This document shows positions 15,639-25,970 of a DNA stretch of 64,000 nucleotides, piece after piece. Both the position numbers and the translations under genes were made by a program. Position 1 is the first letter of the stretch, and each line of letters opens with the position of its first letter. The stretch is from Thiohalorhabdus denitrificans (GTDB taxonomy: Bacteria; Pseudomonadota; Gammaproteobacteria; Thiohalorhabdales; Thiohalorhabdaceae), in NCBI RefSeq assembly GCF_001399755.1, contig NZ_LJCP01000007.1, positions 1 through 64,000 of the forward strand, given 5' to 3'. Below the pieces are notes generated by a model that was not told the DNA's origin, ran no database searches, and worked only from the letters and a program-made list of their open reading frames with translations.

Positions 15639-15660
15639 CCCGCGGCCGGTAACGGACGCG

Positions 15661-15683
15661 CCGGCGGGCCCGCGGCCCGCCGG
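15661..15683 (+). other. 10-bp GC hairpin after rpoC
   Basis: CCGGCGGGCC and GGCCCGCCGG pair around a CGC loop, 22 nt after the rpoC stop. The following bases (GCCCTTACC) are not a real T-tract. It may act as a 3'-end or processing structure, or a weak terminator, just before the next promoter. Confidence 0.55.
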
Positions 15684-15692
15684 GCCCTTACC

Positions 15693-15721
15693 TTGACAGT
15701 ACGTTGGACGCAAACTACAAT
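15693..15721 (+). promoter_or_regulatory. Strong sigma70 promoter of the str-S10-spc-alpha supercluster
   Basis: TTGACA at 15693-15698 (6/6) and TACAAT at 15716-15721 (5/6) are separated by exactly 17 nt. It lies about 55 nt before the leader's ribosome site and is the best promoter match I found in the ribosomal region. Confidence 0.9.
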
Positions 15722-15734
15722 TCCCCGCTTTCCC

Positions 15735-15767
15735 ATGACGGGCCGATAGCGGCCTGTCATTTATTTT
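15735..15767 (+). promoter_or_regulatory. rpsL leader hairpin, attenuator candidate
   Basis: ATGACGGGCC and GGCCTGTCAT form a 10-bp stem (one G-U pair) with a GATAGC loop, followed directly by TTATTTT. This terminator-like structure lies in the 5' leader between the strong promoter and rpsL, so it could attenuate the whole supercluster or serve as a protein-binding site. Its role is inferred. Confidence 0.65.
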
Positions 15768-15783
15768 GAAGGGAGCGAGTCGC

Positions 15784-16155
15784 ATGCCGACCATCAACCA
15801 GTTGGTGCGCAAGCGGCGCAAGAAGGTCGAAGAGAAGAGCAATACCCCCGCGCTGGACTCCTGTCCGCAGCGCCGTGGCGTATGCACCCGGGTTTACACC
15901 GCAACGCCCAAGAAGCCGAACTCGGCGCTGCGCAAGGTGGCGCGCGTGCGGCTCACCAACGGCAAAGAGGTGAGTACGTACATCCCTGGTGAGGGGCACA
16001 ACCTCCAGGAGCACTCCGTTGTCCTGGTGCGCGGTGGCCGGGTGAAGGACCTTCCGGGTGTGCGCTATCACGTGGTCCGCGGTGCCCTGGATACCGCCGG
16101 GGTGAGCGACCGCCGGCAGGCACGCTCGAAATACGGCGCCCGGCGCCCGAAGTAG
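15784..16155 (+). CDS. rpsL: 30S ribosomal protein S12
   Basis: Decoding-centre protein, 123 residues. The loop [10 protein letters not shown] is the streptomycin-sensitive type, and the second loop reads [14 protein letters not shown] chose the ATG at 15784 ([10 protein letters not shown]), downstream of GAAGGGAG, over an upstream in-frame codon at 15766. First gene of the supercluster. Confidence 0.97.
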
Positions 16156-16638
<483 letters not shown>

Positions 16639-20348: not shown

Positions 20349-20984
20349 ATGGCTATCGGTGTAATCGGAAAAAAGATCGGGATGTCCCGTGTGTTCACCG
20401 AGACCGGGGAAAGCGTTCCCGTGACGGTGATCGAGGTGACCCCCAACCGCGTCACCCAGGTAAAGGAACCCGGACGGGACGGCTACGCGGCGGTACAAGT
20501 GGCCGCCGGGGAGCGGAAACCCCATCGGACGCCCAAGCCCCTCGCCGGCCACGCGGCCAAGGCCGGGGTCGCTCCAGGCCGAATCACCCGGGAGTTCCGT
20601 CCCGCCGAGGGCGAGGAGCTTCCCGAGACCGGTGGGACCCTGGAGCTGGACCGGTTCGAGTCGGGTCAGCGCGTGGACATTAGCGGCATTACCAAAGGCC
20701 GAGGCTACGCGGGGACGATGAAGCGGTGGAACTTCGGCGGAGGTCCCGCTACCCACGGTGCCCACAAGATCCACCGCAAGGCCGGCTCGATCGGGCAGAT
20801 GCAGGACCCCGGTCGGGTGTTCAAGGGCAAGAAGATGGCCGGGCAGATGGGCGGACGCAAGACCACCCAGCAGAATCTGGAAGTGGTCCGGGTGGACACG
20901 GAGCGCAACGTCCTGCTGGTGCGGGGCGCGATACCCGGCGCGAAGGACTCCGACGTCCTCGTCCGCCCCTCCGTAAAGGCGTAA
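20349..20984 (+). CDS. rplC: 50S ribosomal protein L3
   Basis: Early-assembly 23S rRNA binder near the peptidyl-transferase centre. It is 211 residues with the conserved GIGKKIGMSRVF-type start (here GVIGKKIGMSRVF) and MAGQMGGRKTTQQNL. It lies 12 nt after rpsJ. The gene is followed by a long structured spacer, unlike the tight spacing elsewhere in the operon. Confidence 0.97.
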   Translation: MAIGVIGKKIGMSRVFTETGESVPVTVIEVTPNRVTQVKEPGRDGYAAVQVAAGERKPHRTPKPLAGHAAKAGVAPGRITREFRPAEGEELPETGGTLELDRFESGQRVDISGITKGRGYAGTMKRWNFGGGPATHGAHKIHRKAGSIGQMQDPGRVFKGKKMAGQMGGRKTTQQNLEVVRVDTERNVLLVRGAIPGAKDSDVLVRPSVKA

Positions 20985-21213
20985 TTTTCCGAGGGGGTCA
21001 GAGCCCGGCCCCTTCATGGAGAAAACAGGAAATTCAGCGCTAACACCGGGAGGTGGTCCTTGCCCGGGAGTGCGCCGCAAGTGCGGTCGCACGAACCGAC
21101 ACCGACCCGGGTAAGGGATGGGCGCGTAGCCGGTCCGGTACCAACCGGCCGGCGCGCCTCTGCGAATCGCAATCGAGTACCCCGGTGACTACGGCGGGCT
21201 GAAAGGGAAAACC
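20985..21213 (+). promoter_or_regulatory. Structured rplC-rplD spacer, possible regulatory RNA
   Basis: This 229-nt spacer has no supported gene. It can fold into a complex hairpin: CCCGGG 21063-21068 pairs with CCCGGG 21106-21111. Inside it, GTGCGCCGC (21070-21078) pairs with GCGG-T-CGCAC (21083-21092), closing an AAGT tetraloop with one bulged T. A second hairpin follows at 21121-21158: GGCGCG/CGCGCC, then GCCGGT/ACCGGC. The rplD ribosome site (GAAAGGGA) is just after. The E. coli S10 leader, where L4 binds, lies before rpsJ. Here no such leader fits before rpsJ, so this element next to rplD could be its functional substitute. That role is inferred. Confidence 0.6.
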
Positions 21214-21831
21214 ATGCAGATCCCAGTAAAGACCCCTACGAACGAGGATAAGGGCACGGCCCAACTGGCCGACGAGGTCTTCGGCGTCCCCTTCCGCGAG
21301 GGGCTGGTCCATCAGGTGGTTCAGGCCACCCTGGCCGGACAGCGGACCGGGAACCACGATACCAAGACCCGTGGCGAGGTGGCCGGCGGGGGGCGCAAGC
21401 CCTGGCGCCAGAAGGGTACCGGGCGCGCCCGGGCCGGTACCATCCGCAGCCCGCTGTGGCGTGGCGGCGGCACGGTTTTTGGCCCGACGCCGCGCTCCTA
21501 CGCCCAGAAGGTGAACAAGAAGATGCGGCAAGGGGCGCTCCGTTCGATGCTCTCCGAGCTCGCACGGCGGGAGGAGCTGCTCGTGGTGGAGGACCTCGGG
21601 GTGAAGGAAGGAAAGACCCGGGAGCTGGCCAGCACCCTCAAGGCACTTGAGGCCGAGGATGCCCTCGTCATCACCCCCTCGGGCGATGAGGCCGTTGCCC
21701 GCGCCGGCGGCAACCTGCCGCGGGTGGCCGTGATGCCGAGCAACCAAGTCGGGGCCCTCGCCCTGGTGTCGCACGCCAAGGTGGTGACCACCGAGAGTGC
21801 CCTGCGCGAGCTGGAGGAACGCCTCTCATGA
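21214..21831 (+). CDS. rplD: 50S ribosomal protein L4
   Basis: 23S rRNA binder lining the exit tunnel and, in enterics, repressor of the S10 operon. It is 205 residues with the tunnel loop containing [17 protein letters not shown]. The ATG at 21214 follows GAAAGGGA. It overlaps rplW by 4 nt (ATGA). Its position directly after the structured spacer makes autoregulation plausible. Confidence 0.97.
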
Positions 21832-25638: not shown

Positions 25639-25959
25639 ATGCAAAGAATTAAGAAAGGCGACGATGTGGTCGTCCGCAGCGGGAAGGACGCCGGCAAGCG
25701 CGGCACCGTGCAACGGGTTCTCCCCCGGGATAACCGGGTGGTGGTCGCCAACGCGAACATGGTGAAGCGGCACGTCCGGCCCAACCCGCAGGCAGGAATC
25801 GCGGGGGGGATCCAGGAGCGGGAGGCAGCCTTGGATTTGTCCAAGGTGAACCCCTTCTGCCGGACCTGTAACAAGGGTGTCCGGATCGGATTCAAGACCC
25901 TCGAGGATGGTCGCAAGGTTCGGGTATGCCGTTCCTGCGGCGAGGCATTGGACAGTTAG
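25639..25959 (+). CDS. rplX: 50S ribosomal protein L24
   Basis: Early-assembly initiator with a KOW motif ([19 protein letters not shown]). It is 106 residues. The C-terminal part carries two CxxC pairs (CRTCNK and CRSCGE), as in many L24 proteins. 20 nt after rplN. Confidence 0.96.
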
Positions 25960-25970
25960 GAGTGTCGGCG

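Follow-up and report, generated by a model that had tools for sequence, protein, structure and literature searches.

Feedback sites for ribosomal protein (r-protein) synthesis can lie between cistrons. In Escherichia coli, the S7 site is located between the genes for S12 and S7, and the S8 site between those for L24 and L5 (PMC2704228). L4 regulates the S10 operon of enteric bacteria; the protein is highly conserved, and its known feedback site is confined to some gammaproteobacteria, having been reported in the enterobacteria, Haemophilus and Vibrio but not in Pseudomonas (PMC10931766). Within the E. coli S10 leader, stem D is required for regulation by L4 (PMC10578931). L4 of E. coli also controls translation through the intercistronic tnaC-tnaA spacer (PMC7186457). 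In addition, r-leader candidates have been described for L2 in the Alphaproteobacteria (from rplB onward) and for L4 in the Archaeoglobi (from rplC and rplD onward) (PMC7247131).

The window, the 64,000-nucleotide stretch of DNA analyzed here, lies on contig C7 of its genome (G000), which the relatives of its L4 protein place in the Gammaproteobacteria. We compared this genome with two relatives from the same genus, G001 and G002, whose L4 proteins are 86% and 70% identical, respectively, to that of G000. Open reading frame calls place the rplC stop at position 20984 and the rplD start at 21214, leaving a spacer of exactly 229 nt. This is the longest gap from rpsL to rpsE; the remaining gaps from rpsJ to rpsE range from -4 to 30 nt, and rpsG and fusA are separated by about 50 nt. 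The preliminary description of a long spacer set among short gaps was therefore accurate. Equally, its statement that rpsJ follows tuf by 7 nt and has no leader was borne out, since the same 7-nt gap is found in G000, G001 and G002 and leaves no place for an S10-type (enteric) leader upstream of rpsJ. Many other members of the class that were sampled also have tuf directly before rpsJ, without a leader.

The sole other long gap in the region, the 145 nt between rpoC and rpsL (15639-15783), has a promoter-like site of its own. It contains a sigma70-like promoter, TTGACA-17-TACAAT (15693-15721), and downstream of this a 10-bp hairpin formed by AUGACGGGCC and GGCCUGUCAU (15735-15760), followed by UUAUUUU and then rpsL. 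The promoter and the stem are kept in G001, where the loop differs, and the site is possibly a str-operon promoter combined with a leader or attenuator.

Like the S7 (rpsL-rpsG) and S8 (rplX-rplE) sites of E. coli, the rplC-rplD spacer is intercistronic and its position would suit control of the downstream cistron; it differs from them in gene junction and in structure. The corresponding junctions of the window genome measure only 12 nt (rpsL-rpsG, 16155-16168) and 5 nt (rplX-rplE, 25959-25965), so neither holds the S7 or S8 feedback site that E. coli has there. The spacer also resembles the tnaC-tnaA spacer, which is intercistronic, about 220 nt long and the place from which L4 lowers downstream translation. 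However, that operon is unrelated, and binding of L4 is experimental there but only a candidate property of the element before rplD.

Pairwise alignment of the spacer with the 238-nt spacer found at the same rplC-rplD position in G001 revealed two conserved blocks on either side of a variable domain. The features are listed in Table 1.

Table 1. Features of the rplC-rplD spacer and its surroundings (positions in the window)
Feature	Position	Strand	Basis or remark
rplC-rplD spacer with element	20985..21213	+	ORF ends; 229 nt
5' hairpin directly after rplC stop	20985..21023	+	Isolated-segment fold
Conserved 5' block GGAAAUUCAGCGCUnACACCGGGAG	21028..21052	+	Pairwise alignments; 24/25 identical in G001
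Closing stem, 5' strand	21033..21041	+	UUCAGC with 21198-21203, GCU with 21193-21195
Inner helix, 5' strand CACCGG	21044..21049	+	Partner CCGGUG 21182-21187
Variable apical domain	21053..21181	+	About 130 nt, unalignable with G001; predicted to form several hairpins in both spacers
Conserved 3' block CCGGUGnnUACGGCGGGCUGAAAGGG	21182..21207	+	Pairwise alignments; 24/26 identical in G001
rplD Shine-Dalgarno AAGGG, adjoining closing stem	21203..21207	+	Sequence; pairing probabilities
rplD (L4), presumed target	21214..21828	+	ORF; starts compared

As a neutral yardstick we used four-fold degenerate sites of neighboring genes, at which G000 and G001 are 62.6% identical. Against this value, the binomial probabilities of the observed identities were approximately 1.3e-4 for the 5' block, which lies about 160 nt upstream of the rplD start, and 6.8e-4 for the 3' block, both uncorrected for the choice of blocks. 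The comparison of sequences thus supports purifying selection on both blocks. At the start of rplD, the first 23 nt, which include two rare codons (CCA and GTA), were also identical in the two genomes, but this identity is of limited weight because it spans few degenerate sites, and is suggestive at most. None of the open frames in the G000 spacer is conserved in G001, and an upstream ORF or leader peptide was rejected on that ground.

The two blocks are complementary to each other. The core pairing runs from UUCAGC/GCUGAA through GCU/GGC and an asymmetric internal loop to CACCGG/CCGGUG. The 3' block supplies the 3' strand of each helix as well as the conserved nnUAC loop. The internal loop itself is conserved, as GCU-nA-CAC opposite GUG-nnUAC-GGC. 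The block-to-block duplex had a predicted energy of -23.3 kcal/mol in G000 and -21.1 kcal/mol in G001, values equalled or surpassed by 2 and 5 of 1,000 shuffles, respectively. The core belongs to the minimum-energy fold of G000. For G001 the outcome depends on how much of rplD is added: with 21 nt the core is the most stable fold, with 30 nt it is 2 kcal/mol less stable than the optimum, and with 60 nt its ensemble probability is low. The element is known from these two spacers only, and since all 15 core pairs are invariant between them, covariation speaks neither for nor against the structure.

We compared the folding energy of each spacer with that of dinucleotide shuffles. The G000 spacer had a predicted energy of -112.6 kcal/mol (z = -3.85; 1 of 200 shuffles was as good), whereas the G001 spacer was about as stable as its shuffles (z = +0.5). 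The apical domain behaved in the same way, being stable in G000 (z = -3.2) but not in G001 (z = 0.05). The label "highly structured" in the preliminary description is thus apt for G000 but does not name a conserved property, because G001 is not unusually stable; what is conserved is the complementarity of the paired ends, not overall stability. The hairpin that follows the rplC stop is also formed in G001, from a different sequence, and its stability was reached by 0 of 300 shuffles in G000 and 24 of 300 in G001. A switch in which CCCUU of this hairpin pairs with the Shine-Dalgarno sequence is possible in both species but less stable than the best fold by 8.3 and 5.9 kcal/mol; it was rejected, and such pairing is likely to arise by chance with any purine-rich Shine-Dalgarno sequence.

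The last base of the closing stem (21203) is also the first base of the Shine-Dalgarno sequence, approximately 10 nt upstream of the rplD AUG. The earlier suggestion of an RNA element just before rplD is supported, in that conserved, complementary blocks abut the ribosome-binding site. R-leaders in general have a conserved RNA structure beside the start site of an r-protein gene, and such a structure is present here with two species as support. A search of the spacer returned no promoter on the + strand, and no terminator-like site was found on the + strand between 20900 and 21300. On balance, we consider it probable that the spacer is a lineage-restricted, intercistronic, cis-acting RNA of the r-protein leader type and a candidate for the control of rplD initiation. 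By analogy with known feedback systems, an r-protein from the same transcript, when in excess, would bind the conserved loop and stabilize the closing stem that ends on the rplD AAGGG, and 30S subunits would thereby be kept from starting on rplD. The genes from rplW onward would fall along with rplD, if they are translationally coupled, and the upstream genes from rpsL to rplC would be spared. The middle domain is a spacer that is free to vary.

The alternative that survives best is a structural element that acts without a ligand. Its paired ends may shield the transcript from Rho, or may be cut by RNase III or RNase E so that the mRNA from rplD onward acquires its own 5' end, with a stability and stoichiometry unlike those of rpsL-rplC. 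A long untranslated stretch within an r-protein operon would presumably need protection, both species have a 5' hairpin that begins with the rplC stop although its sequence differs, and the middle of such an element could vary provided that folding persists. However, the conserved unpaired nnUAC and nA, the GG bulge and GGAAA exceed what a plain double-stranded element would need, and we regard both the insulating and the processing version as fairly unlikely.

If a protein binds the core, L4 is the first candidate because rplD follows directly and L4 regulates the operon in enteric bacteria (PMC10931766). Judged only from position it is the most likely ligand, an assignment that we make tentatively. 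Aligned S10 leaders share a conserved hairpin apex, CC-RAUY-K-GG, which we take to be stem D (HD) and which was present in all four aligned leaders from the class. The S10 leaders upstream of rpsJ in three gammaproteobacterial genomes have the same HD apex as E. coli. This HD core was sought in the spacers of G000 and G001 and was absent from both. Local alignment of both blocks with the 23S rRNA of E. coli and G002, which assesses sequence likeness only, gave scores no better than those of shuffles. The 23S rRNA gene was not found in the assemblies of G000 or G001, and contig C7 starts within a 5S rRNA gene; the rRNA operons have therefore probably been collapsed or lost at contig ends. A likeness between the core loop (nnUAC/nACAC) and residues of the E. 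coli S10 leader and 23S rRNA, noticed by eye, was rejected because those residues are not conserved in the four S10 leaders, whose conserved hairpin, HD, lies elsewhere.

The suggestion that the element is a relocated S10 leader is not supported by these comparisons, since neither spacer shares the HD core of the four aligned S10 leaders, no terminator follows and the likeness to 23S rRNA is not significant. Like the E. coli S10 leader, the element is a structured non-coding RNA of this gene cluster for which L4 is the presumed ligand; unlike that leader, it lies before rplD rather than rpsJ and has no HD core, no terminator-like site and no sequence similarity to it. If the element responds to L4, the RNA involved differs from that of the S10 leader. 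The element would then be a new class of L4-responsive RNA, born in the S10 cluster of one gammaproteobacterial genus without the enteric-type leader. It would split the fused str-S10-spc cluster in two, with L4 controlling the downstream part and the upstream part left uncontrolled, a proposal that we put forward as doubtful.

A different ligand (L3, L23, L2, S10 or a small molecule) could bind the core and control rplD instead. No sequence feature points to L4, the blocks have no significant match to the L4 region of 23S rRNA or to the S10 leader, and L2 has been proposed for an r-leader inside the alphaproteobacterial S10 cluster (PMC7247131). Against this, the element lies directly before the gene for L4, the known enteric regulator of the operon (PMC10931766), and we consider another ligand quite unlikely.

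The distribution of the element is narrow. In G002 the rplC-rplD spacer is only 14 nt. Outgroup spacers were measured from the rplC stop to the matched portion of rplD, so that their lengths are upper bounds: they were at most 58 nt at 27 other gammaproteobacterial loci and at most 104 nt at all 42 measurable loci among 43 further ones. Absence of the spacer from relatives, which the preliminary description had named as grounds for doubt, is thus the case for all relatives except G001. The simplest account of these sequences is that the element was gained in the lineage of G000 and G001. That G002 manages without it counts against a regulatory role.

A protein search of GTDB 220 contigs returned no close relatives of the genus. 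We built a covariance model of the element and ran it on 369 genomes at class level and 398 at phylum level; the former yielded G000 and G001 only, with one copy in each, and the latter no credible match, the remaining matches being chance-like (E of 0.005 to 0.4). No copy was found in the viral contigs searched. At the Rfam gathering threshold, tRNA and 5S rRNA alone were reported in the window, and a search of both spacers against Rfam 15 with E up to 10 gave only chance-level matches. The earlier surmise that the RNA is new agrees with these searches, which gave neither an Rfam match nor a relative outside the genus, and the element is probably a lineage-restricted RNA that has not been described previously. 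The L2 and L4 candidates of PMC7247131 are similar in lying in or before the S10 cluster, in their narrow distribution and in having been found by comparative genomics. They belong to other lineages, however, and Rfam 15 gave no match to either spacer.

Its absence from G002 and all outgroups implies a recent gain, as would be expected of a neutral or decaying insertion, such as an old mobile element or duplication whose ends are inverted repeats by chance; inverted-repeat ends around a variable interior do look like a small transposon. However, a repeat or mobile element was rejected because there is a single copy in both G000 and G001. Furthermore, a shared remnant would not hold its ends at 92 to 96% identity beside an unalignable middle, and these ends are not plain inverted repeats but contain an asymmetric loop that is conserved, making such an origin very unlikely. 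It is hardly credible that this is ordinary spacing, with the 3' block a ribosome-binding region and the 5' block a local coincidence: the starts of r-protein genes are commonly conserved and a four-fold identity of 0.626 weakens the significance of any single block, but the distant 5' block is conserved as much as the 3' block and the complementarity of the two exceeds that of shuffles in both species.

Should the spacer be the regulatory RNA that we propose, r-protein feedback would have been reinvented at a new site, rplD, recently and independently. G002, which has no such element, would provide a natural control, and the genus may offer a second RNA from which to learn how L4 recognizes its targets.
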